IMG/VR virus record: IMGVR_UViG_3300017598_000604
Location: 1-40,633 of that record
From: a virus
Strand: one strand, 5' to 3'
Length of the DNA: 40,633 bases
Below are positions 2,894-40,463 of this stretch, in pieces (position 1 is the stretch's first letter; each line of letters starts with the position of its first letter). The notes beneath the pieces were generated by a model. It was not told where the DNA came from, searched no databases, and saw only the letters and a program-made list of their open reading frames with translations. The position numbers and the translations under genes are program-made.

Positions 2894-3206
2894 AAAAGGA
2901 GTGAGTATTGTGGGGTTGCAGCTTGAGATGAGGTCGGTGTTGATTGCTGCGGGTGGGATATGGAAGGGGTATGGGTTTGATCTTGTGGTAACGAGCGGGC
3001 TTGATGGGGAACATAGCGTGGGGAGTTATCATTATTACGGGCTTGCGGTTGATTTGCGCACGAGGTATTTCAGGTCATTGAGGGATGTGAGGGATGCGGG
3101 GGATCAATTGCAGAAGAAATTATTCGTTATGGAGCCGACGAGAGACTACGTAGTGGTCGTGGAGAAGGATCACATGCATGTTCATTGTAGGAAGGTTATC
3201 AGATGA
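2874..3206 (+). CDS. M15-like zinc peptidase, candidate endolysin
   Basis: The 110-residue protein carries the zinc-site pattern of small phage M15/VanY-type peptidases. SGLDGEHSVGSYHYYGLAVD (residues 41-60) supplies His53 and Asp60, and KDHMHVHC (98-105) supplies the C-terminal histidines. Known relatives cleave peptide cross-links in peptidoglycan, and compact single-domain versions act as endolysins. There is no signal peptide, so release would need a holin; a holin-like gene lies at 31444-31653 on the other strand. The ATG at 2874 has a good SD (GGAAAGGAG). The stop overlaps the next start. The fold assignment is fairly secure, the lysis role is inference. Confidence 0.75.
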   Translation: MGRLKIKKGVSIVGLQLEMRSVLIAAGGIWKGYGFDLVVTSGLDGEHSVGSYHYYGLAVDLRTRYFRSLRDVRDAGDQLQKKLFVMEPTRDYVVVVEKDHMHVHCRKVIR

Positions 3207-3865
3207 CGCGGGGGGTTTATACACACGTGCCGAGTGAGGGGCCGAAGAATGCAAAAATAATTCTGCATTTATGTGCTGACGTTGGAACGGACTCAAAACC
3301 TTATAAAGACATGGGGTATGATGTTCGTTTGATTGGTAGTGATATGGGTGTCGAAAATTATAGCCCCCTTGATAATGTTAATGTGTATGGGATTATTGCA
3401 AATCCTGTCTGCACTGAATTTAGCGTTGCTCAAGGTTTTGATAAATTCTGTAACTATGAAGAAGGCTTATTTCTTGTTCGTGAATGTCTTCGTATTATTG
3501 TTGCCTGTTCCCCTAAATTTTGGGTAATTGAAAACCCTGCTTCCGGGCGATTAAAGAAAGTTATTGGCGCGCCTCAAATGACATACGAACCTTGGGAATT
3601 TGGTAGCCCCTGGACAAAGAAAACTGGTTTATGGGGTATCTTTAACAAGCCGAAAAAAGTATACACAAAATGGGAAGATGTACCGAAAAACTCAAAACTT
3701 TATATAAGACCAAAGCGACCAAAACCATCGATAGCTTTTTTACACAAAAGCGCGCAGAATGACATTGAAGAATTTTCTTGTTTTCCGCAGGCCGTTAACG
3801 ATATGTCTTTTCGTTCGTTTTGTCCTCAAACATTTGCTTGGGCTTTTTTTATGGTGAATCAATGA
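3203..3865 (+). CDS. C5-cytosine DNA methyltransferase-like protein with a borrowed leader
   Basis: This 220-residue protein contains LHLCADVGTD (about 21-30) as a cofactor-binding motif I equivalent, NPVCTEFS (67-74) with a catalytic cysteine at 70, and ENP at 110-112. These match a compact phage class of cytosine-C5 methylases that use S-adenosylmethionine. The target-recognition region is short, so specificity cannot be read. The first 20 residues (GVYTHVPSEGPKNAK) nearly duplicate the start of the next gene's product, although the DNA has diverged at synonymous positions. The rest has codon use unlike its neighbours. This suggests the methylase body was inserted after the leader of the polymerase gene. 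Likely role: protecting phage DNA from host restriction. Confidence 0.75.
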   Translation: MTRGVYTHVPSEGPKNAKIILHLCADVGTDSKPYKDMGYDVRLIGSDMGVENYSPLDNVNVYGIIANPVCTEFSVAQGFDKFCNYEEGLFLVRECLRIIVACSPKFWVIENPASGRLKKVIGAPQMTYEPWEFGSPWTKKTGLWGIFNKPKKVYTKWEDVPKNSKLYIRPKRPKPSIAFLHKSAQNDIEEFSCFPQAVNDMSFRSFCPQTFAWAFFMVNQ

Positions 3866-5718
3866 AAGGTGTATATACACACGTTCCAAGCGAAGGGCCG
3901 AAGGATGCGAAGATTGTACTTCTCGGTGAGAGCGCGTGGATCAACGAAGTAGAAGCGGGGAGGCCGTTTGCGGGGCAGAGTGGGAATTTGCTAAAGATGT
4001 GGTGGAGTCCGTTGGGGATTAAGCGTACTGAGATGCGGTTGATGAACCTTTTTTCTTATAGGCCGCCTACACGTGAGATAGGTAGTGTGCCTGCGGAGAA
4101 GATAATTAAGGCGATTGAGGGGATTCACGCGAGGATTGCGCAGTTAAAAGATCCGCATGTGATTGTGCCGTGTGGGAATTATGCCACCTTCGCTCTCACT
4201 GGAAAGGGAAAGGTAAAGGCGCAGATTCGGAATGCGTTTGGGCAATTTACGGAGAGTGCGAGTGAAGCGGAGAAGAAAGCGGGGATTACTCAGTTGCGCG
4301 GATCGATATATAAGTATCGAGATTTGAATGGGCGTATCGTGAAAGTGATTCCGACGATTCATCCTGCTGGTGTGTTGCAAATGCCGAAGTGGGGGAAGCG
4401 AAGTATTGCGGATTGGGGGAGAATTGCGAGGGAGAGTAAGTTTCGGGAGGTAAGGGAGCCTGCGCGAGAGCATATTATTAATCCAAGTGAAGATGATATA
4501 CTGCGATTTTACTCTCAAGCGGAAGTGCATAATGAGAATGCGCAAATGAGCATAGATATAGAAACGTGGAGGAATACTTTGAGTTGTGTGGGGTTTGCGG
4601 TGAGTCCGACCTTGAGTATTACTATTCCTTGTACCGAGAAGGATAGGGGGAATTTGGGGTGGATTAATGCGCTTTGTCAAAGTGCGTGTCAGAAAGTATT
4701 GTGTAATGGGAGTTATGATGCGTATTGGCTGAATGCGTATGGGATTGGGATTAGGAACTATCTGTGGGATGTGCAGAGTATGCATCATGCGATTGATCCT
4801 GCGGAATCTCATTCGTTGGATTTTCTTGCGAGTATATATGCGGATTTCTATTGTTATTGGAAAGATGAAGCAAAAGAAGCGGAGGAGATTATTAAGTATG
4901 CGAAGGATTTGGACTCCTTGTATGTATATAATGGGCTTGATTGTTGTTATACGAGGGAGTTGGTTGATAAGTTGGATGTCGAATTAGTACGAGAGGGGAT
5001 GAAGGATTTTTACTTTCGGCATTATCAAGCGATGTTTGGGCCATTGATTTGGACGATGAGGCATGGGATTCGGGTTGATGTAGGAGAACAGAAGAAGATT
5101 GCGAAGCAGTTGAAGGGGGAATTGAAGGGGTTGCATGGGAAGTTGAATGAGTTAGCGGGGGAGGAATTGTTTGCTGTGGAGGAGAAGACTGCGTTGAGGG
5201 AGCCTACAGAAGGGGAATGGTTCGAGTTATTAAAAGGTGCGCCACCTCCGGTAGAAATACCGAAAGCGAAATACATCTCTCGTGAGGCTCGTGAGTTATT
5301 TAAAGAAAACGGTTTGACTTATATGATGAGTGGGAAGAATGCGGGGAAGATACGGTATAAAGTGAGTAAGACAAAGAAGGATTTCAGCAAGGATAAATTA
5401 TTGGAGTTCTTTTATGGAACGTTGGGGTTGCCGAAGCAATTCGAGATGCGGAAGGGGGTTAGCGGGAAGAAGCGAACGATCAGCTTGAATGAGGCTGCGT
5501 TGAGAAAATTGATGGCGAAGAGCCCGAAAGCGGTTGAGCCTGGGGGGTTGTTGCTAAGTTACAGGGAGAAGAAGAAGGAGTTGGATTATCTCAGGGGGAG
5601 TTGGGATAAGGATGGAAGAATAAGGTGTAGCTATAAGATGAATACGAGGGCGGGCCGACTTTCATCAGCGAAGAATCCTATGCGGAAGGGGTATAATTTA
5701 CAAAATTTAAAGAGGTGA
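3862..5718 (+). CDS. Uracil-DNA glycosylase-like / 3'-5' exonuclease / family A polymerase N-terminal part
   Basis: This 618-residue product has three regions. Residues 18-190 form a family 4-like uracil-DNA-glycosylase fold (GRPFAGQSGNLL at 33-44, HPAGVL at 167-172). Residues 225-365 are a proofreading exonuclease with DIE (Asp232, Glu234), NGSYD (Asp286) and YNGLD (Tyr356, Asp360). Residues 385-618 are the thumb and early palm of a family A polymerase, ending with TRAGRLSS and NLQNLKR. UDG-like domains fused to polymerase occur in SPO1-type phages. The protein stops exactly where motif A should follow, and motifs A, B and C are encoded at 7045-7881. I start at the ATG overlapping the methylase stop, because its product begins with the duplicated leader; an upstream in-frame start lies inside the methylase gene. 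Confidence 0.85.
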   Translation: MKGVYTHVPSEGPKDAKIVLLGESAWINEVEAGRPFAGQSGNLLKMWWSPLGIKRTEMRLMNLFSYRPPTREIGSVPAEKIIKAIEGIHARIAQLKDPHVIVPCGNYATFALTGKGKVKAQIRNAFGQFTESASEAEKKAGITQLRGSIYKYRDLNGRIVKVIPTIHPAGVLQMPKWGKRSIADWGRIARESKFREVREPAREHIINPSEDDILRFYSQAEVHNENAQMSIDIETWRNTLSCVGFAVSPTLSITIPCTEKDRGNLGWINALCQSACQKVLCNGSYDAYWLNAYGIGIRNYLWDVQSMHHAIDPAESHSLDFLASIYADFYCYWKDEAKEAEEIIKYAKDLDSLYVYNGLDCCYTRELVDKLDVELVREGMKDFYFRHYQAMFGPLIWTMRHGIRVDVGEQKKIAKQLKGELKGLHGKLNELAGEELFAVEEKTALREPTEGEWFELLKGAPPPVEIPKAKYISREARELFKENGLTYMMSGKNAGKIRYKVSKTKKDFSKDKLLEFFYGTLGLPKQFEMRKGVSGKKRTISLNEAALRKLMAKSPKAVEPGGLLLSYREKKKELDYLRGSWDKDGRIRCSYKMNTRAGRLSSAKNPMRKGYNLQNLKR

Positions 5719-5719
5719 A

Positions 5720-5764
5720 TTCATTTTAGTTACGTTAATTTGCGTTAACTTGCATTAAATTAAA
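5720..5764 (+). repeat. TTNNN pentanucleotide array, block A
   Basis: Immediately after the polymerase N-terminal stop, nine consecutive five-base units all begin with TT (for example TTACG, TTAAT, TTGCG, TTAAC, TTGCA). The remaining three positions vary, so this is a degenerate five-base period, not a simple copy. It ends just before the SD of the 80-residue gene. Confidence 0.75.
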
Positions 5765-5789
5765 CCATTAAATGAAAGGAGGATCAAAA

Positions 5790-6032
5790 ATGAAATACGA
5801 AAAACAATTAAAATCGAACGCAGAAATGGCTGCGGAAATTATGGGGGATTATTTAAAAGGGAAAAAAGTAAAGCCGGAGAAAGTGAAGCTTTCATCCGTT
5901 GCTGTAACGCAGTATCAAAGGTTCATGGCAACGAAAGGAGTGTTTGCTCATCTTGGGTTTAGTATTGCGAGATCAATAGCGAAGGATCGAGAGGAGTTAA
6001 AGGGAATGGTGGAACAACCGAAGTTACCATAA
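5790..6032 (+). CDS. Small helical basic protein inside the split polymerase
   Basis: I choose the second of two in-frame ATGs because AAAGGAGGATCAAAA stands directly before it. The 80-residue product is lysine/glutamate-rich and mostly helical, with no recognised motif. It is flanked on both sides by TTNNN arrays and uses A-ending codons, unlike the G-ending polymerase halves. It therefore looks like part of an inserted cassette. It could be an array-binding protein, but that rests on position alone. Confidence 0.7.
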   Translation: MKYEKQLKSNAEMAAEIMGDYLKGKKVKPEKVKLSSVAVTQYQRFMATKGVFAHLGFSIARSIAKDREELKGMVEQPKLP

Positions 6033-6033
6033 A

Positions 6034-6128
6034 TTGGTTTTTATTGCGTTGTGTTAAGTTCAGTCCGATTCAGCTATTTTGTGTTGCGTTCGTTTGCGTT
6101 TTGTTAAACTCTATTACTTTAAATTTAT
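6034..6128 (+). repeat. TTNNN pentanucleotide array, block B
   Basis: Starting one base after the stop of the 80-residue gene, 16 of 19 consecutive five-base units begin with TT. The exceptions, at 6064, 6074 and 6109, keep the register. Many units end in G (TTGCG, TTGTG, TTAAG, TTCAG), so GTTNN describes the pattern as well. The block is separated from block C by about 19 bases containing an A run and a phase shift. Confidence 0.75.
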
Positions 6129-6147
6129 TAAACAAAAAAGGATCTTT

Positions 6148-6222
6148 TTAATTTAAGTTGCTTTGGGTTGAGTTGATTTCCATTAGTTTGATTTGTGTTC
6201 CGTTGAATTAAGTTAAATTAAA
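6148..6222 (+). repeat. TTNNN pentanucleotide array, block C
   Basis: Fifteen of fifteen consecutive five-base units begin with TT (such as TTAAG, TTGCT, TTGGG, TTGAG, TTGAT). The series ends in two TTAAA units directly before the SD (AAAGGAGGAGAACC) of the RAMP-like gene, as block A also does before its gene. The sequence lacks dyad symmetry, has no spacer-repeat structure, and is not a multiple-of-three coding repeat. Confidence 0.8.
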
Positions 6223-6239
6223 AACAAAGGAGGAGAACC

Positions 6240-6770
6240 ATGAAATATTACAAATGCACGATTAAAGGAAACGCACCTTATTATTATACGAAACCAACCA
6301 AAGAGGAAAAAGTACCGAAAACCGAAGAACAAAAGAAAGCATCGGCTTTGAGGAAAGTTTACAATAACGGGGGTTTGCTTATTCCGAATAGGCAAATTAA
6401 AAGAGCAATGATGGAAGCAGCGAGAACAGCAAAGATGAAAACGGAACGATCCGCTGCGAGGACGGTTAAATTGTTTTCAACTAATCTATTGCAGATACAA
6501 CCACAGGAAATTTACATTCAACCGGAGATGGCGATAGAAGACATTATTCTCGAAGAGTGGTTCATACATGAAGCGGGGATTTGGAGTTATATTGCGAGAG
6601 TTGATGAATGGGAATTGACTTTCGATGTTGTTTTCAGTGAAGTGTTTGAACCTTCTTTCATTAAAGAGGCTTTGGAGAATGCAGGATTATTAAGCTGTAT
6701 TGGCGGTAGGAGGGGGCTTGGCAATGGGGCTTTTGATGTTATAAGTTTCGAGGAAGGGGATGATAGGTGA
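6240..6770 (+). CDS. RAMP/Cas7-like phage protein
   Basis: This 176-residue protein starts YKCTIKGNAPYYY, a position where relatives have a KGTSPLL-type strand. It continues with ALRKVYNNGGLLIPNRQIKR and a basic helix, and ends with an AGLLSCIGGRRGLGNGAFDV glycine-rich loop. I associate this order with a common family of uncharacterised phage early proteins whose fold is reminiscent of CRISPR Cas7/RAMP RNA-binding subunits; that assignment is from memory and would need a profile search. The SD is very strong. It lies between the polymerase halves, immediately after a 15-unit TTNNN array, and has A-rich codon use unlike the polymerase. A nucleic-acid-binding role is plausible inference. Confidence 0.6.
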   Translation: MKYYKCTIKGNAPYYYTKPTKEEKVPKTEEQKKASALRKVYNNGGLLIPNRQIKRAMMEAARTAKMKTERSAARTVKLFSTNLLQIQPQEIYIQPEMAIEDIILEEWFIHEAGIWSYIARVDEWELTFDVVFSEVFEPSFIKEALENAGLLSCIGGRRGLGNGAFDVISFEEGDDR

Positions 6771-7048
6771 ATAAAATGGGCGATTCAAAAGAGGTATTTC
6801 AAGCGTTGAAGAAATCACACCACAGATACAAAGATAAGTGTCTAAAAGAGAATATGAATACTCTTAATGGGTTAGGGATCGAGTATGAGGTGTTTAACCT
6901 TGGGTATCATTTGAAGGTGAAGTTGCTTGGGAATGTGATTGACTTTTGGCCGAGCACTAATAAGTGGATGTGGGATAAGAAGACTTATCACGGGAATGCG
7001 GGGATGTTGATTAAGTGGGTTAATCGATATTTGGGGGAAGAAAGGTGA
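6767..7048 (+). CDS. Phage-conserved small protein with an IDFWPSTNKW motif
   Basis: The 93-residue product has a charged helical N-terminus, then LGIEYEVFNLGYHLKV and VIDFWPSTNKWMW, a combination seen in many small phage proteins of unknown role. It begins at a GTG overlapping the previous stop (SD GAGGAAGGGG); an ATG nine bases later is an alternative. Its codon use (TTG, GGG, AAG) is closer to the polymerase than to the two preceding genes, so the foreign cassette may end just upstream. Its stop overlaps the start of the polymerase catalytic gene (GTGA), implying coupled translation. Confidence 0.7.
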   Translation: MNKMGDSKEVFQALKKSHHRYKDKCLKENMNTLNGLGIEYEVFNLGYHLKVKLLGNVIDFWPSTNKWMWDKKTYHGNAGMLIKWVNRYLGEER

Positions 7049-7881
7049 AGAGTATCCGGGAAACATTCCTACCCGATGAAGGGTGTGTGTTTGTGCGAGT
7101 GGATCTTTCGCAGATAGAAGATCGTGTGTGCAAGATGTATTGCGGGACTGAGCGCATGGTAGAGTTAGCGAATCGGAAGCCGGATGTATATGATGCACAC
7201 GTGGATAATGCGGCTATGATATTTAAGAAAGCGCACGCGGAGATTACTAAGGATGAGAGGTATTTGGGGAAGCGGACAACGCATGGTGCGCAGCGGGGGT
7301 TAAGGGGTGCGAAGTTAAGTGAGAATGTTTCAAAGGACACGAAGGGGGGGTTATTCATTCATCCGAGACAGTGTGATCGGTTACTTGATTCTTATCTTGA
7401 TGCGATGTGGGAGGTTAGAGATATCTACTTCCCGTGGGTTGAGAGTGTGTTAAGGAATGTAGGTGTGCTTGAGACTTCTTGGGGGAGGAGGTTGGATCTA
7501 CGTGGGTTGCGGATCGACGACGACCTATATCGGGAAGCGTATTCGTACTATATGCAAGCTGAGTGTGCGGATTGGACAAATCAATATGGGTTTATTCCTG
7601 GGAGTCATTACATGATGGGGAGGTACGGGAAGCCGCTGAATGCGCAGGTTCATGATGAGATTATTGCGAGTTTGCCTGTGCAAGATACGTATGAATATGC
7701 CGATTTCATCGTGAAGTGTTTTGAGCAGTATCGGGAGATACCGAGAGGGAGTGGGAATTATTTGTGTGTGCCTGCGAGTGTGACGGTGGGGAGAAGTTGG
7801 GGGGATAAGGAGGGAGTGGAGTTTAAGAGTTTGCCGCATCGGGATGATTTTTTTAATGAACTGGTGAAAAGGGGGGTTTGA
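7045..7881 (+). CDS. Family A DNA polymerase, catalytic C-terminal part (separate gene)
   Basis: This 278-residue product resumes exactly where the 3862-5718 gene stops. Motif A is VDLSQIEDR with catalytic Asp20. Motif B spans 72-90, with Arg72, Lys76, His80 and Arg84 where E. coli Pol I has Arg754, Lys758, Phe762 and Tyr766. Motif C is QVHDEI with catalytic Asp204. Together the two genes give a complete UDG-exonuclease-polymerase of ordinary layout. Translation starts at a GTG behind GGGGGAAGAAAG, overlapping the upstream stop, so this is an independent cistron. The His at the 762-like position and the loss of the tyrosine at the 766-like position are noteworthy. Confidence 0.85.
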   Translation: MKSIRETFLPDEGCVFVRVDLSQIEDRVCKMYCGTERMVELANRKPDVYDAHVDNAAMIFKKAHAEITKDERYLGKRTTHGAQRGLRGAKLSENVSKDTKGGLFIHPRQCDRLLDSYLDAMWEVRDIYFPWVESVLRNVGVLETSWGRRLDLRGLRIDDDLYREAYSYYMQAECADWTNQYGFIPGSHYMMGRYGKPLNAQVHDEIIASLPVQDTYEYADFIVKCFEQYREIPRGSGNYLCVPASVTVGRSWGDKEGVEFKSLPHRDDFFNELVKRGV

Positions 7882-8190: not shown

Positions 8191-8508
8191 ATGAAAACAC
8201 AAGATGAAATCAAAAAATTATTAAGCACACTATCACCAGACCAGCAAGCATTCGCTAAAGCGGTCACATTGATGCGAATTGAGCACGCGACTATGACACA
8301 ACAACTTGCCGACATAAAACCTTTCTACGATGATTTGTATAAGATTATGCTCGTGATTCTGCACGCGCAACCTTCTCGTGAACTGCGGATACACGATAGT
8401 CAATTTTTGCGTTTCAAGGAGGAATACAGGATCGATAGGATGTATGATAAGGAGAAGAGTGAGGTGGTGATTAGGTTGCTTACTGTTCATGATGATGTTG
8501 CTGAGTAG
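8191..8508 (+). CDS. Hypothetical phage early protein
   Basis: The 105-residue product has a helical N-terminus and a C-terminal region ELRIHDSQFLRFKEEYRIDR followed by a beta-like stretch, a pattern I have seen in small phage early proteins without known function. The SD GGGGAGGTAGAGA is good. It is followed within six bases by the P-loop ATPase gene, so it may be a partner in replication. Confidence 0.65.
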   Translation: MKTQDEIKKLLSTLSPDQQAFAKAVTLMRIEHATMTQQLADIKPFYDDLYKIMLVILHAQPSRELRIHDSQFLRFKEEYRIDRMYDKEKSEVVIRLLTVHDDVAE

Positions 8509-8513
8509 CTCGA

Positions 8514-9701
8514 TTGTCTATCCTCCAAAAGACAACAAACTTCTTCGAGTTGTATCGGCATATTTGCGGAGAGAGTGAAGTACCTTCAATGTATCACTTT
8601 TGGTGCGCGGTATCGCTCATCTCCGCAACCGTAGAAGATAGAATTTGGTTCGAGAAGTTTAAGCACGAGAAATTGTATCCGAATCTATTTATTATGCTTG
8701 TCGGGCCGAGTGGATTGGGTAAGGGTACGGCGATTGGGCATCTCGTTAGGTTGAGTGAGTGTGCGATAAGTGTTAATCGGTTTCGGGGTAGGGTAACGGC
8801 TGCGCACTTAATCGATCATCTTGGGAAGCCGCATTTGGATGAATGGGGGCAACGTGCACTCAGTAATCCGCGTCTTTGGTTGATTATGGATGAATTAAAG
8901 AATGATGTATCGAGTAATCGAAAAATGGTGGAGGAGTTTATCTATCTTATGACGGAGTTGTATACCGCGAGTAATTATACAATTGATACAGGGACGAGGA
9001 CGCATGGGAAGGTAAGGGTTGATAAGCCGATTATTAACTGGTTAGCTGGAACGAATGAAGAAGATTTAAGGGATATTATCACGAAGGAGTTGCTTAATAG
9101 TGGGTTTGTTGCGAGGACTTGTTTTGTATTCGGGGAGTATAATTTTGGAAAGCGGATACCGAAGATTAAGTATCCATATGACTACGAAGAGATATTCCAG
9201 CACCTTTGTTATAGATTATGGGCGTTGCAGAGGACGCATGGGAGAATGTTGATTACGGATAGTGCGGATGCAGAAATGGATAAATGGTACATGACAAGGC
9301 CGAATCCGAGGGAGGAATTGTTATATAGTACGTGGAAAAGGCACCATGATTTGATATTGAAGTTTAGTATGATATTATGCTTGGGGGATTGTTGTCCTTT
9401 GGTGATTCAACAGAAGCATGTGGTGAACGCGAAGAGGATGGTTGATAAAGTGTTTAAGTTCGGGGAAGATTTGGTAGCGATAGGGAGTGAGAGGAATAGT
9501 ATCAAGGATAGCAATACGGTCGCAAGGTATATTAAAGGGAAAAAGCGGATATCACATACAATTGCGAGCAGGTATTTTAGAAGTCTGCATGGGATGAATA
9601 GTGTGAAGTTTCGGAAAGCGATTAATGATTTATTGGTGGATCGGCTGATCGAGATAGAGAAGACTACGACGAAAGCGACATTTTATTTATGGAGGGGGTG
9701 A
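8514..9701 (+). CDS. DUF3987-like P-loop ATPase, probable replication helicase
   Basis: The 395-residue product has Walker A GPSGLGKGT (64-72), Walker B LWLIMDEL (121-128) and the characteristic opening of DUF3987-type proteins (a short helical region, then VPSMYHFW and YPNLFIMLVGPSG). Such proteins are found with phage polymerases and are thought to act as helicase or primase-helicase motors. The C-terminal 80 residues look like a winged-helix domain. The start is uncertain: TTG at 8514 has little SD but keeps the conserved N-terminal region, whereas the next ATG would remove part of it. No separate primase is visible in the window. Confidence 0.75.
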   Translation: MSILQKTTNFFELYRHICGESEVPSMYHFWCAVSLISATVEDRIWFEKFKHEKLYPNLFIMLVGPSGLGKGTAIGHLVRLSECAISVNRFRGRVTAAHLIDHLGKPHLDEWGQRALSNPRLWLIMDELKNDVSSNRKMVEEFIYLMTELYTASNYTIDTGTRTHGKVRVDKPIINWLAGTNEEDLRDIITKELLNSGFVARTCFVFGEYNFGKRIPKIKYPYDYEEIFQHLCYRLWALQRTHGRMLITDSADAEMDKWYMTRPNPREELLYSTWKRHHDLILKFSMILCLGDCCPLVIQQKHVVNAKRMVDKVFKFGEDLVAIGSERNSIKDSNTVARYIKGKKRISHTIASRYFRSLHGMNSVKFRKAINDLLVDRLIEIEKTTTKATFYLWRG

Positions 9702-13428: not shown

Positions 13429-15050
13429 TTACCTTCTCCTAAATATTTCGCTTTGCGTCCTTGTGCATCTGTGTATACTTTATCTTTCTCGAATTTATCT
13501 TGGGTTTGCTTAACTGTTTGCGTTGACTCTGTTGGTTTCACTAATACAGAATCGAAACCTTCTATTTTCATACCTAAAAGTGTTCGTGCTGTATCCAACA
13601 TACTACGGGCCAGTTTTCGCCCATCTGGTCGTAGATAATTCAACATAGGTAAAGAGTTTAATATTTTTGCGTAATCTTGGTCCGTGAAACGTCCACCTCG
13701 CTCTACCATCGATAACATTTTTTTACCTATGATGCTAAGTTGCCTCTCGTACTGTCTCGCTGCAAGCCAAAGATCGGTTCCTGCAATTTCACCTGATCGA
13801 ATAGCTGCTCCGTGTTTTATTCGACTTGCAAGATCGTCGCTGGAGGAGAACACCTTTAACACAAGAGGTTCGAGAACGGTATCGAATAAATCCATAACGT
13901 CCGTGATATCTTGGTAATCCTTTCGATCTGTTTCCGTTGCAAACCGAAAACCTGCATCCGCAACATCTTGATAAGTTTGGAATGACGCTCCGATTCCATG
14001 CTTCGCTCGATCCTCTGCGCTGATTTGTTTCAATGGTTCAAGTTCTTGTTCCGTTTTGAAACGTGCTACATTTTCTTTTACCATTTTATTAATTGCGCGG
14101 TTCTCCATAATAACACGAGCATCCGAAATATCTTCAGGCTCGATCAAATTTGGGGGTTTTCCTTTTGTTTCCCATATAACAGTTTTCATTTCGTCTGAGA
14201 TGAAGTCTTTGTCTTCAAGGTCGCGGAAGCGATCAAGAATTGGTTGGTAGTGGTCGGGGATGAAACCGTCCTTTGCTGCCATTGCTTCGAGAATGTAACC
14301 TGCGCGGGTTTGTCCGTTATCTTTCATCTTCGGGTGTGCTTTGTTTATTACGTCGATTAGGATAGGGTCATTGAAGGAGCGAGAGAATTCGCGCTCGAAT
14401 AACACTTCGCGCTCACCTTCGTCTAAGCCCTTTAAGCTTGATGCACCATCGGGGATGAAATTGTATTGTACTGCAGTTTCGTGGACTGCTTGGCTAACCG
14501 GGGTGCCTGCGTTGACTTTCTCACCGAATGTTTGAAACCACGCGGGGGTCTGGAAATAGTTTGCGCCGGGGTCAATGCCGGAGAACTTCTTTAGTGCTGC
14601 ACGCTTTACAAAATCACGTGTGATTAGCGGTGGCGCAGTTGAAGTCGCAACAGGTTCCTCCGTCGGTGCGTCGGTCGTTGTTTGCGGAGTCGCTTGTGTT
14701 TGGGTTTGTACCGGCTGTCCAGGGGGAACCTGTTGCGGGGTTTGAGTTGGGGTGGGTGTGCCGCCTCCGATTAATGTTTGAATTTGATTTGCCATTTCGA
14801 TATCAAAAGCTGCTTTTGCTTGCTGTTCGGGAGTGCGCATTCCTGCTATTGAAGTATATAGTGAAGCGTCCACACCTTCGGGGGCATTCTTTGCGAGTGC
14901 AGCGATCTGTTTTTGGTTGCCTTCTTTTACAGCGGCTTCCATTAATTTACGGTAAGCAGTGCGACCTTCCTTTGCGATTTTATCCTCCTCGCTTATACCT
15001 TTCGAAGACGATGGAAGTGCTTGAGACATAAGTGTTTGTAATAGTGACAT
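13404..15050 (-). CDS. Internal virion protein candidate with a Thr/Pro/Gln linker
   Basis: The 548-residue product has a helical N-terminal part, a low-complexity linker of T, P and Q from about residue 97 to 140, and a long helical C-terminal part without recognised motifs. The last 35 residues form a small module (KVYTDAQGRKAKYLGEGKWQ). Gene order (nozzle, GNAT-like, small protein, this, large protein) suggests an ejection or internal core protein. I found no lytic transglycosylase motif, which would be expected in one such protein of T7-like phages. Confidence 0.55.
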   Translation of the reverse strand: MSLLQTLMSQALPSSSKGISEEDKIAKEGRTAYRKLMEAAVKEGNQKQIAALAKNAPEGVDASLYTSIAGMRTPEQQAKAAFDIEMANQIQTLIGGGTPTPTQTPQQVPPGQPVQTQTQATPQTTTDAPTEEPVATSTAPPLITRDFVKRAALKKFSGIDPGANYFQTPAWFQTFGEKVNAGTPVSQAVHETAVQYNFIPDGASSLKGLDEGEREVLFEREFSRSFNDPILIDVINKAHPKMKDNGQTRAGYILEAMAAKDGFIPDHYQPILDRFRDLEDKDFISDEMKTVIWETKGKPPNLIEPEDISDARVIMENRAINKMVKENVARFKTEQELEPLKQISAEDRAKHGIGASFQTYQDVADAGFRFATETDRKDYQDITDVMDLFDTVLEPLVLKVFSSSDDLASRIKHGAAIRSGEIAGTDLWLAARQYERQLSIIGKKMLSMVERGGRFTDQDYAKILNSLPMLNYLRPDGRKLARSMLDTARTLLGMKIEGFDSVLVKPTESTQTVKQTQDKFEKDKVYTDAQGRKAKYLGEGKWQLMKIK

Positions 15051-20942: not shown

Positions 20943-21101
20943 TTATAACCTTATATAATTGATTACTGACATTCTTGCAACTTTAAAACGACGATAAAAA
21001 GGTATATTGCTGACACCTATACGCAATACAGAAAGAAAAAAAGGATATGCGAGCAATACACGCTTCCATCGAGGTCTTTTCTTTAATTGTATTGTATTCA
21101 T
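20943..21101 (-). CDS. Small basic hydrophobic protein
   Basis: A 52-residue frame starts right after the upstream stop (TAAATG) behind GTGGAGATAA. The product is arginine/lysine-rich at the N-terminus (LKKRPRWKR) with a hydrophobic segment (VLLAYPFFLSVLRIGV) that could insert into a membrane. Together with the next upstream frame it fills a gap of 280 bases between two virion genes. Function unknown. Confidence 0.5.
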   Translation of the reverse strand: MNTIQLKKRPRWKRVLLAYPFFLSVLRIGVSNIPFYRRFKVARMSVINYIRL

Positions 21102-21224
21102 TTATCTCCACTTTTTACGTCGTAGTAATAAATCAAGAAATAAAACGAGCGATAGAAACAAAATCCCGAAGGTTGCAATAATGAACGCTAAAGCATATTT
21201 AATTTTTTCAATTATACGCATCAT
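21102..21224 (-). CDS. Single-pass membrane peptide
   Basis: A 40-residue frame begins at the ATGATG overlapping the adaptor gene stop (SD ACGAGGGA). Residues 11-33 are strongly hydrophobic (ALAFIIATFGILFLSLVLFL), flanked by K/R on both sides, so it is a transmembrane segment. It is coupled to the small basic gene that follows. Possible lysis accessory or tail-associated membrane peptide, but there is no direct support. Confidence 0.55.
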   Translation of the reverse strand: MMRIIEKIKYALAFIIATFGILFLSLVLFLDLLLRRKKWR

Positions 21225-36710: not shown

Positions 36711-39700
36711 TCAAACTCCCCTAATCCTAACCCCTCTACCACTTGCTTCCGCAATCCTGTTCATGATTGTCTCAGTTAGCCGCTCTCCCCGCTCCACCTT
36801 CGGCAACGGCTTCTCACCCGCATCTTTAATCTTACCCTTATTATACCTCTTAAGTAAAATCATATCCCTCTCATCTTCCTCGAATAGAATCTGACCACCG
36901 ACAATGGTAAAATCCCGTATCAAAGAAGCGTCAAAATCCGTCAACTCAGGATCGGACGCATTGTTTAGATAGAGTAAGTAAAAATTCGCCTTATGTTCCC
37001 GCTGCAATTGCTCAATATCAGCGAGTGAATACTTCTCTTTCCATAGTATCTCCCCGTCTCGAATTATCCTGTGAAAACGCTCATCATTAACCTCTACACT
37101 TGAGTCATGGTCAATTATCTCCGAATAGAGATCATAAACACTCCAACGCGTATTATGAACAGCAAGACCATTTGCAAAAAATGAGTGTTCATCTTCAACC
37201 GTCAAATCCCACACTTCTTCAACAATACCAGTACGAACAACATCGACTACACGCTCAAATCTCAAATCCTCATCTAATTTAGTGTCTCTCCAAACGTTCA
37301 AACCACCGTATAAATTTTTATTAACGCTTTGTGTGCGTTCAATTGTACTAAAATTAAAACTTGCACTATGACAAATAGAACGAATAGGATACTTTGAATT
37401 CGGTGGTTGTACGACACGTTCTCTCGTCAAAAACCGACCAGTTCGAACACCACAAATACAAGCAATATGTCGAAGATCTTCCAATAATTCTTTGTTGGAA
37501 ATCTCAACTCTCCAAGTTTGATGGTTTTGCCAACCACCATCCGCATCACAAAAACCACGCAAAAATTGAATCTTGCTTTCCTTTGGAAGACGATAAACCC
37601 AATCAGGTATACGTTTAGTCTTCGCGCTCCCCTCAAAACCCAAATCAACAAAAAACTTTGCCGCTGCAACACTGTCCGTTCTATAATACCCACCCTTCGT
37701 CAAAGATAATTTATTACACGGTACATATTGTTTTAAATCATTCAATACTCGCTCGTTCAACTTTTCATCAATTCCAGGTGAAAAACAAACGTAACCTTTT
37801 TTCGGTCGATTATTAACCCAACCATCACCTAACATAAAACCAAATAACCAACAAAATTCAGGTTCAAAATCTGTATCGCAATCGTAAGAATACAGCGATT
37901 TGTGCGCAACAATCAAATCACCAATCTGTAATTGATCTGCTCTTCTCCACCCCAATGAAGATTTACCGACGGAAATTAAAAACGGGTGGTTCCCTGTCGC
38001 TTTCAGGTCATGTGTATTTGTCGAAATAGCCCAAGTTTCAGCTTTACCTTGGGGTATAACCGCGCTTACTTTTTTTCTCCAAGCACCATTTCCATTATCA
38101 TCAGGAGCATAAACAAATTCTCCAGCTTTAATATCGCAAATTCGCTTTTTAGTTCCATCAGACATCGTAATCATTGAATCTTTTGTTAAACACCCGATGA
38201 TGAATTCCAGCGATTCCAATCCACTCTCAATCTCATACTTATCAAGGAGTGCGCGACTCGCCTTATGCCACTCAATCGCCTCCGTCATCACCACCTCCGA
38301 ATGCGCAGCATCAAACGTCACAAGATCATCCTTTATCATCACATTCGGCCTCGCGCCAGTAATCGCACCCCCTACACCCACCGCACGAATAGTCGGATCA
38401 GGCCACTCATTCTTCCTCGGTATAATTATCCCATCATTATTCCACTGCGCACTATCCCTCGCATTCTCCCAACATCGATCAGGCCAGAATGCGCGAAACA
38501 CACGATTCTCCGTAAACACACTCTTCACTACGCGGAGATTCTTCTGCGCCATGTTCGCAGTCTCACCCGCCATGAGTATTCGACATTCGCTCCCTTCGAG
38601 TCCTGGGAAGTATATATTAGTCTCCGCTGGTTGAATAAGAATATGCGTCGGCAACCCCCCACTTACAATTGTAGTATTGTGTGTGATAATGTCCCCGAAG
38701 GTAAGAGTATGGTTCTCCGTCTGCACCGACGTAGTTTCTCGCTCACCTAAATATTCGATTTTTACAACGGATTCCCATCCAATGTCGCTATCACACATCC
38801 CCAATAACCAACTGTCTTTTATAATCTCCGCAACTTTACGCACCTTCCTCCTTGTTGAAGCGTATTTATTATCAACACGAATACCATGCTTTAATCGAAG
38901 CGACACACCACCTTTTGGTATTCGCTCCCGCCATTGAGGAGGAAATTGATCGATAACACACCTATCGCTACGGTCCAATTTACCTTCGTATACAATTCCC
39001 GCATAATCAGTAAAATTTATTCTGAAGTATTTATAATCGTTGTAATCTTTACCGTTAATGCGTACTCCTGTTTCTCTTCTCAATTTTGGATGAAGGCCGA
39101 ATTTTATAAGGAGATGTTGCACATCGAATGCAAGTCGTTCACTTATCGTAGTATACTCTATCGCGCGCCCCGTTGTGTTTCGTACTACACTTTTCGTACC
39201 ATCGTGTCGAATCAATTCATACAAAAAAGCCCGAACAGTCTCTTCATCTCCTTGCAATACGAAGTCCGGGGCGAATTTATCTGCGGAGCGATGACCGTAG
39301 AGTCCCCAACTACCCCATAAATCTTTGGCTTTTTTAACCGCAACAAACCCCGCACGTTCAGAATACACATATTCCACCGTCTTATAACCCAACTTTGTTA
39401 CTAAGGACGCAAAAAGATCTCGCTCTTTCCCGTCTTTTGCTGTCATGCGAGATGAAACAAAATCGCCATCCGCTACCATCCAGCCACAAACAGCAGCTTC
39501 AAGAGGTGAATGTTTCTTACCAAAAACACCTTTTTTAACAACTCCGATCCAATCACCAATACTCAAACCATCGTCTATACTTACCCAATCGCTTTCCCAA
39601 CGAAGGAAAGGGTGATTGCCTGTACAAAGAAACTCGCGACCAGAAGTTGTTACGACTCGATAAACACTCTTAATCCCGTTCGGTTGTGTGATCATTGTAT

Positions 39701-40463
39701 CCTCCTTTATTCTTCCATTTTTATCTGTGGAAGACACAATACCACGACTATACTGCCTTGTCAACATGTATTTGTCACAGCATTTTCCATGCTCACGCGG
39801 CATCAACTTCAGCTTCCGAAACGGCGGCACTTTCTGCAACCAATGACACGCATCCCGATGGAAATGGTCGGTGAGAAAGAAGCGTCCAAGCACACCCTTC
39901 AGGAACACGAACAAACTCTCCTCTGCACGCTTCTTATACCGCTTCAACCACTCCCCTTCAGGCATACTCGCACCCGCATGTCTCGGTTGACCATTCGAAT
40001 CAATAACAATCTCCGTCGGCCTGAACTCGTTGTCCCCTTCCCTTTCGCGTGCGGGTTGGAAGGTGGAGCCGAGAGGTGGATTAAGTCTCCCGGCTCCGTT
40101 TGGTGGGATGTTGGCACTCCCCTCGTGTATAAAGGGTAAACTGAGCGCAGCCAACACTCGCTCATCACCGTCAAGGTGGGCTGTCCTTGACGATATATAA
40201 CGTGCCTGGTATGGGGAGATTGTTCCTCCGCTCTTTCCATTGCTATACTTCAATGGAGTTCCAGACACCGGCAACGATGACTTCCCCCCATTGATCGTGG
40301 TGGGAAAAAGCGTCGGATCAAACGCACCATCGTTGAAATCTATCGCAATAATCGGACAAGGGCCGAACTCGCGCAATATTCTCGCATCCATCGCCTCTCG
40401 ATGCCCCTCCGAGACACGTGCAAGTACCGCAGCCACCTCATCCCTGTCGTCTATGTAATCCAC
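36711..40463 (-). CDS. Large terminase ATPase with two inteins
   Basis: The 1250-residue precursor contains an unusual N-terminal extension (1-180), then the TerL ATPase. Walker A is MPREHGK plus TTIVSG, split by intein 1. ETANMAQKNLRVVKSV and the Walker B-like NVMIKDDLVTFD follow. Next comes FIIG plus TRW, split by intein 2. After splicing the ATPase would be about 534 residues and still lack the nuclease half, which is encoded at 35409-36068. Start is GTG at 40463, preceded by an in-frame stop and a weak SD. The protein would power DNA packaging. The intein codon usage appears more A/T-rich than the flanking parts. Confidence 0.8.
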   Translation of the reverse strand: MDYIDDRDEVAAVLARVSEGHREAMDARILREFGPCPIIAIDFNDGAFDPTLFPTTINGGKSSLPVSGTPLKYSNGKSGGTISPYQARYISSRTAHLDGDERVLAALSLPFIHEGSANIPPNGAGRLNPPLGSTFQPAREREGDNEFRPTEIVIDSNGQPRHAGASMPEGEWLKRYKKRAEESLFVFLKGVLGRFFLTDHFHRDACHWLQKVPPFRKLKLMPREHGKCCDKYMLTRQYSRGIVSSTDKNGRIKEDTMITQPNGIKSVYRVVTTSGREFLCTGNHPFLRWESDWVSIDDGLSIGDWIGVVKKGVFGKKHSPLEAAVCGWMVADGDFVSSRMTAKDGKERDLFASLVTKLGYKTVEYVYSERAGFVAVKKAKDLWGSWGLYGHRSADKFAPDFVLQGDEETVRAFLYELIRHDGTKSVVRNTTGRAIEYTTISERLAFDVQHLLIKFGLHPKLRRETGVRINGKDYNDYKYFRINFTDYAGIVYEGKLDRSDRCVIDQFPPQWRERIPKGGVSLRLKHGIRVDNKYASTRRKVRKVAEIIKDSWLLGMCDSDIGWESVVKIEYLGERETTSVQTENHTLTFGDIITHNTTIVSGGLPTHILIQPAETNIYFPGLEGSECRILMAGETANMAQKNLRVVKSVFTENRVFRAFWPDRCWENARDSAQWNNDGIIIPRKNEWPDPTIRAVGVGGAITGARPNVMIKDDLVTFDAAHSEVVMTEAIEWHKASRALLDKYEIESGLESLEFIIGCLTKDSMITMSDGTKKRICDIKAGEFVYAPDDNGNGAWRKKVSAVIPQGKAETWAISTNTHDLKATGNHPFLISVGKSSLGWRRADQLQIGDLIVAHKSLYSYDCDTDFEPEFCWLFGFMLGDGWVNNRPKKGYVCFSPGIDEKLNERVLNDLKQYVPCNKLSLTKGGYYRTDSVAAAKFFVDLGFEGSAKTKRIPDWVYRLPKESKIQFLRGFCDADGGWQNHQTWRVEISNKELLEDLRHIACICGVRTGRFLTRERVVQPPNSKYPIRSICHSASFNFSTIERTQSVNKNLYGGLNVWRDTKLDEDLRFERVVDVVRTGIVEEVWDLTVEDEHSFFANGLAVHNTRWSVYDLYSEIIDHDSSVEVNDERFHRIIRDGEILWKEKYSLADIEQLQREHKANFYLLYLNNASDPELTDFDASLIRDFTIVGGQILFEEDERDMILLKRYNKGKIKDAGEKPLPKVERGERLTETIMNRIAEASGRGVRIRGV
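37152..38192 (-). mobile_element. Intein 2 in the terminase GTRW motif
   Basis: Residues 758-1104. It begins CLTKDSMIT after FIIG and ends FANGLAVHN before TRW, restoring the GTRW motif on splicing. It shows block B ATGNHPFLIS, two well-kept LAGLIDADG-type motifs (WLFGFMLGDGW and FLRGFCDADGG), and the terminal VWDLTVEDEHSF block. It therefore looks intact for splicing and homing. Confidence 0.88.
38676..39782 (-). mobile_element. Intein 1 in the terminase Walker A motif
   Basis: Residues 228-596 of the precursor. It starts at Cys228, directly after ...EHGK, and ends THN before Thr597, restoring GKTT on splicing. The splicing domain includes CTGNHPFLRW (block B) and the terminal block. Two LAGLIDADG-like motifs (AVCGWMVADGDF and FLYELIRHDGT) mark a homing endonuclease region, partly degenerate. 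The opening CCDKYMLT is atypical, so the exact N-terminal block is less certain. Confidence 0.8.

Follow-up and report, generated by a model that had tools for sequence, protein, structure and literature searches.

A family A DNA polymerase encoded as two open reading frames across a clade of viral contigs

The viral record IMGVR_UViG_3300017598_000604 of IMG/VR (positions 1 to 40,633, a stretch of 40,633 nt hereafter called the window) carries a family A DNA polymerase with a uracil-DNA glycosylase (UDG)-like domain, the segments of which do not lie in one chain but in two open reading frames (ORFs) 1,326 nt apart, a division found in seven contigs. The upstream ORF (the N-half) ends with AGRLSSAKNPMRKGYNLQNLKR followed by a stop codon, and matches the profiles PF03167 (UDG; 5.5e-18, 65.9 bits, above cut-off) and PF01612 (exonuclease; 4.2e-6). 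It also matches TIGR00758 (family 4 UDG; E 2.1e-22), with 79.7 bits and thus under the cut-off of 125.3, and reading of the sequence showed that its first ~100 residues lack any cysteine, and so the N-terminal cysteine pair of the iron-sulphur cluster of family 4 UDGs. The downstream ORF (the C-half) begins with (V)KSIRETFLPDEGCVFVRVDLSQIEDR, has the motif A aspartate 18 residues after its start, and matches PF00476 (1.4e-21, profile positions 139-380). Its catalytic residues D20 and D204/E205, which align to Taq D610/D785, are invariant, and R72, K76 and H80 of motif B, R..K...(F/Y/H)...Y, are retained. The two halves align to complementary portions of phrog_17 (DNA polymerase), positions 477-985 and 995-1241, respectively. 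The coordinates, ORFs and motifs agree with the original prediction, made from the nucleotide sequence alone, of a polymerase split before motif A. Also as predicted, the GTG start codon of the C-half (7045-7047) overlaps the TGA (7046-7048) of the ORF that precedes it, and GGGGGAAGAAAG lies upstream. The sequence AAAGAGGTGA (5709-5718), which spans the end of the N-half, is itself Shine-Dalgarno (SD)-like and is identical in the window and in two of its relatives (L007 and L009).

The stretch between the halves holds three intact ORFs and several arrays in which TT recurs every 5 nt, as had been noted earlier (Table 1). Profile searches gave no confident function for any of the three ORFs and recognised no homing endonuclease gene among them, and no homologues were detected, at E 1e-3, in the corresponding inserts of the six relatives described below. 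The arrays exceed chance expectation, as at most six units arose when the whole window was shuffled 50 times under a first-order Markov model. Weaker arrays occur elsewhere in the window (13480-13511, 14912-14948 and 21077-21113), and in L007 a run of 10/10 units lies on the minus strand (1407-1453). Just upstream of the N-half, a methyltransferase-like gene (3203-3865, + strand) starts with MTRGVYTHVPSEGPKNAKI, which nearly repeats the beginning of the polymerase, MKGVYTHVPSEGPKDAKI (3862-3925, + strand); the 5′ end of the polymerase gene is thus partially duplicated, on the flank of a gene that was apparently inserted.

Table 1. Features of the polymerase locus in the window
Feature	Position	Strand	Description
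Polymerase N-half	3862..5718	+	618 aa; UDG family-4-like domain, 3′-5′ exonuclease, thumb, palm to NLQN-LKR-stop
Split point	5710..5718	+	Last codons AAG-AGG-TGA (KR-stop)
Insert between halves	5719..7044	+	1,326 nt, 37.6% GC
TT-every-5-nt array	5720..5761	+	9/9 units
Insert ORF 1	5772/5790..6032	+	86 aa, or 80 aa from ATG 5790 (after GGAGG); no assigned function
TT-every-5-nt arrays ahead of insert ORF 2	6024..6219	+	6024-6060, 6069-6105, 6148-6219 (last 15/15 units)
Insert ORF 2	6240..6770	+	176 aa; weak phrog_4652 match (E 0.0023), no assigned function
Insert ORF 3	6767..7048	+	93 aa; phrog_27571 (E 7.5e-7), no assigned function; stop overlaps C-half start codon
SD-like sequence ahead of C-half start	7033..7044	+	GGGGGAAGAAAG, read directly
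Polymerase C-half	7045..7881	+	278 aa, GTG start; motif A, fingers/motif B, motif C (QVHDE)
Conserved neighbour ORF	8191..8508	+	105 aa; downstream in clade
DUF3987 / primase-helicase-like gene	8514..9701	+	Downstream in clade and in other UDG-PolA phages

Relatives were sought in IMG/VR with both halves. Few or none were returned when viral contigs were searched with single sequences or genome contigs were scanned, and the searches succeeded with two- and five-sequence alignments as queries. The same break was found in six other viral contigs (L007, L009, L010, L011 with its near-copy L012, L054/L128, and L052), all metagenomic, and the members of this group are 41-71% identical in pairwise comparisons. 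The identical break in six independent contigs rules out chance, as well as misassembly, a concern raised with the original prediction, as the cause of the split. In six of the seven the N-half ends in QN(L/I)KR and a stop, and the C-halves have 2-7 codons ahead of the conserved IR(E/Q)T, which lies in ...(K)SIRETFLPDEG or a sequence close to it. Each of the seven C-halves has a start codon of its own (ATG, GTG or TTG), preceded at a short distance by an SD-like sequence. The latter is GGGGGAAGAAAG (before GTG) in the window, TTGAGG in L009, AAAGGGG in L010 and L007, AGGGGG in L054, AAGGAGG in L052 and a weak one in L011. In-frame stops lie no more than about 15 codons upstream of the C-half starts in the members measured.

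What lies between the halves varies. The gap measures 1,326 nt in the window and 347, 841, 2,696, 4,892 and 8,639 nt in others; for L052, on the assumption of a circular contig, it would be about 3.8 kb. Among its contents are a YspA/SLOG gene (L009), a PAPS-reductase-like gene (L054) and, in L011, the sole clade insert with an HNH gene, an HNH endonuclease gene (phrog_5200, 9.5e-49) directly after the N-half. One large membrane/ATPase-like ORF is common only to the inserts of L007, L052 and L054, and spans the contig ends in L052. Three of the larger clade inserts share a membrane-anchored, partly P-loop ATPase-like protein (L007 6942-8861, L140 4247-5461 and L139 3357-5168, the last on the minus strand). 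The earlier description of a gene split by a three-gene insert has to be qualified: the break is old and clade-wide, and the three genes in the window, as its current filling only, probably did not cause it.

The original prediction had proposed alignment to unsplit homologues as a check, and closely related one-ORF homologues were indeed found. The nearest outgroups (L053, L055, L056 and L057) carry a single uninterrupted ORF. Unsplit sisters run through the cut site as NLQNPSRKIRHTFLPDKG, where the window has NLQNLKR, a stop codon and (V)KSIRETFLPDEG; the read-through of L055, NLQNPSRKIRHTFLPDKGCVFIKIDLSQVEDRV, is covered in full by its counterpart in the window, NLQNLKR-stop plus (V)KSIRETFLPDEGCVFVRVDLSQIEDRV, so that nothing is missing from the window polymerase. 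In an IQ-TREE analysis of 32 polymerases, the seven split sequences form one clade (bootstrap/SH-aLRT 100/99), which L057 adjoins (95/91) and outside which L053, L055 and L056 fall; a larger, quick tree agrees. The split clade thus lies within a group of relatives whose gene is unsplit. Among unsplit relatives, the length of the loop from NLQN to motif A ranges from a few residues to more than 20, as one would expect if it is exposed at the surface and can tolerate a break. The C-half alone gave a predicted structure with a pLDDT (predicted local distance difference test score) of 81.5, which matches PolA structures in the PDB (E about 1e-11); the root-mean-square deviation is high (8-9 Å), and the domain placement in the isolated model is therefore not reliable.

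We consider it very likely that an ancient gene fission has left a replicative family A polymerase (UDG, exonuclease and polymerase) to be made as two separately translated subunits, joined without a peptide bond. At the level of sequence, the locus has the elements of a two-subunit enzyme, namely two intact ORFs with their own starts that jointly cover the unsplit enzyme. The cut would have fallen in the loop that links the NLQN element to motif A, with each half translated from its own start. Of the two subunits, which would fold together non-covalently, the N-subunit would supply the exonuclease, the thumb and part of the palm, while the fingers and the catalytic aspartates would come from the C-subunit; we infer that the halves assemble as subunits and are active together, by analogy with the split T4-like enzymes described below. 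Afterwards, accessory genes would have been gained and lost in the gap. The initial event may have been the insertion of a homing endonuclease gene at a recognised homing hotspot of phage polA. A group I intron with an HNH nuclease interrupts polA of SPO1 right before N(A)QQ, about seven residues upstream of the split in the window, and intron nucleases of the SPO1 kind reuse one polA site in distant phages (PMC3428280). Because of this nearby site, its reuse by nucleases and the HNH gene in L011, a homing endonuclease is the likeliest first insert, a plausible idea to be taken as a lead only.

Several points weigh against this picture. The N-half of L052 ends in NLQTIPQ and a stop, and its C-half sits at the opposite end of the contig. 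The AlphaFold model of the N-half, built from a five-sequence alignment, is poor (mean pLDDT 58) and unusable. At the tyrosine position of motif B, the five split-clade C-halves that were aligned have an invariant arginine (R84 in the window), most aligned unsplit relatives having Y there; such an arginine is unusual and could possibly mean an altered chemistry. The contigs may be incomplete, and a further polymerase may thus exist, and the homing origin draws on one HNH-bearing relative and on the proximity of the SPO1 intron site.

The divided polymerase could instead be a broken relic, with a host or other enzyme replicating the phage. Fission by insertion often inactivates genes, and the records may be incomplete. 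However, pN (nonsynonymous) was lower than pS (synonymous differences, at sites that are saturated) in 21 of 21 pairs for both halves, and the identities of the N- and C-halves correlate (r = 0.89), which together argue against decay. Purifying selection thus acts on both halves down to about 41% identity, the catalytic residues and the location beside the primase/helicase gene are retained, and neither a second PolA nor any PolB or DnaE turned up in the window or in five contigs of the clade, in searches with positive controls. We therefore regard decay as unlikely. An equally unlikely account is that of two independent enzymes, in which the N-half would work by itself as a UDG/exonuclease while the C-half belonged to another complex. 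The UDG-like and exonuclease domains of the N-half would fit this account, but the N-half also retains the thumb and the palm up to NLQN, parts with no known use except in combination with the C-half. The two halves also evolve at rates that track each other, although a shared tree alone would give such a correlation.

Two subunits would also not be made if the gene were interrupted by a group I or group II intron, perhaps split or degenerate, that is spliced from the RNA to give one chain. Introns are known in the polA of phages (SPO1, Bastille and Pf-WMP3; PMC3428280, PMC11878797), the SPO1 intron lies close to the split, and an intron was raised by the authors who described the divided polymerase of phage MEP401 (PMC10580990; see below). 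No Rfam match was obtained at gathering score, however, and none of relevance at a relaxed E-value, in the window, L007, L009, L010, L011 and L004, and the inserts are mostly non-homologous and differ 25-fold in length, unlike a single intron family. The start codons and SD-like sequences of all seven C-halves, and two further genes (L069 and L088, see below) in which a stop-start overlap is all that separates the halves, also speak against splicing, which makes an intron quite improbable. Taken with the unsplit homologues, this evidence favours two polypeptides over RNA splicing, as first proposed. A split intein that ligates the halves by protein trans-splicing can hardly be entertained: split inteins are known in phage replication genes (PolB of phage MIJ3, PMC6892783) and the terminase of the same phage carries inteins, but the LKR after NLQN and the few in-frame codons before the C-half starts leave too little room for intein pieces, and neither half matches an intein domain in the libraries that detect those of the terminase. 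The terminase large subunit ORF (1,250 aa; 36711-40463, minus strand) apparently contains two inteins, with N-terminal regions, LAGLIDADG_3, Intein_splicing and a C-terminal region.

The linker between NLQN and motif A has been cut more than once. In Vibrio phage VS-ABTNL-3, the first ORF ends in NLQNLPKGDG and a stop, and the polymerase resumes with ...QLPNIKKLFVPEP after one gene. L069 (NLQNIPEGG-stop, with a TAATG overlap) and L088 (NLQNISKGDK-stop, with an ATGA overlap) are cut without an insert; each is a single metagenomic contig, and a frameshift error is possible for either alone. Three changes are needed on the tree for the ten split sequences, and a single clade for all ten is rejected by the approximately unbiased (AU) test (p 2.3e-11), with the limits of the substitution model shared by tree and test. 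In another PolA lineage, the polymerase of the OM43 phage MEP401 is cut in the same linker. Breaks also occur elsewhere in the gene, in Kuura and, as in-frame stops that may be errors or readthrough, in L062 and L099. Counting these, three of six breaks fall in a linker of ~20 residues, for which the chance is about 2e-4 if breaks are uniform, a rough, post hoc estimate from a small count. In Caulobacter phage Kuura (L002, 4977-8381), the UDG/exonuclease and polymerase ORFs are separate, with two small genes between them and the break between exonuclease and thumb; L062 (TAG, 3338-3340) and L099 (TGA, 6693-6695) each have a single in-frame stop in an otherwise open UDG-PolA gene, from error, readthrough or recoding. 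A broader idea, which we put forward only tentatively, is that in phage family A polymerases fission recurs at this linker and is tolerated by selection, and that, in the clade described here, the outcome was a stable two-subunit replicative polymerase, its gap serving over long periods as a site at which accessory genes dock (up to 8.6 kb); the phage would perhaps control polymerase assembly through the separate supply of the halves.

If the halves assemble, the clade would have a family A replicase that obligatorily consists of two chains, with the break beside the catalytic aspartate and preserved over a long divergence, and with unsplit sisters for comparison. Natural split points would be on offer for engineered split polymerases, and the locus would illustrate how an essential phage gene turns into a neighbourhood for gene cargo after its interruption.

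Phage polymerases in pieces have been described before, also in other families. The minimal PolIII alpha of jumbo phages is split (PMC7824862), as is PolB of MIJ3, the halves of which, unlike those in the window, carry intein blocks. In T4-like phages, the split gp43A/gp43B (Aeromonas phages 25 and 44RR) co-purify and polymerise, and the split NrdA (Aeh1) is active (PMC2988022); as in the window, an essential phage enzyme is split by an insert and its halves are made apart, but the enzyme is a family B polymerase or a reductase, the insert is a homing endonuclease gene or an untranslated stretch, and no multi-kb variable cargo was reported. SPO1 gp31 is a UDG-PolA interrupted close by, yet its group I intron, with I-HmuI inside, is spliced and one protein results (PMC3428280, PMC11878797). 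The VS-ABTNL-3 genes PVS_29/PVS_28/PVS_27 (MF497422) share with the window the UDG-PolA type, the linker and a gene in between, but the proteins are only about 26-28% identical to those of the window, represent a separate split event on the tree and are not annotated as a split gene. In MEP401 and MEP402 (Methylophilales OM43), as in most of their group I relatives, a family A polymerase is encoded by two ORFs with a small ORF between them (PMC10580990; OP830906). The break of MEP401 lies in the NLQN-to-motif A linker (gp13 ends in NLQNFDGEIKTLFLSRYGE and a stop, gp15 starts with MILNADAKALEW), about a dozen residues closer to motif A than in the window, in a lineage that lacks the UDG domain and with one small insert; it was published without biochemistry. 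For the question whether that gene is split or holds an intron, the present clade provides a comparative answer from a second lineage, which points to separate translation and no intron. Split phage PolA (MEP401), split PolB and split PolIII-alpha are thus already known; what appears to be new, as far as papers under open licences show, is the split of a UDG-PolA, the fact that it is fixed in a clade whose sisters are unsplit, the large and variable cargo, the repeated cutting of one linker and the evidence, from sequence, for separate translation of the halves.

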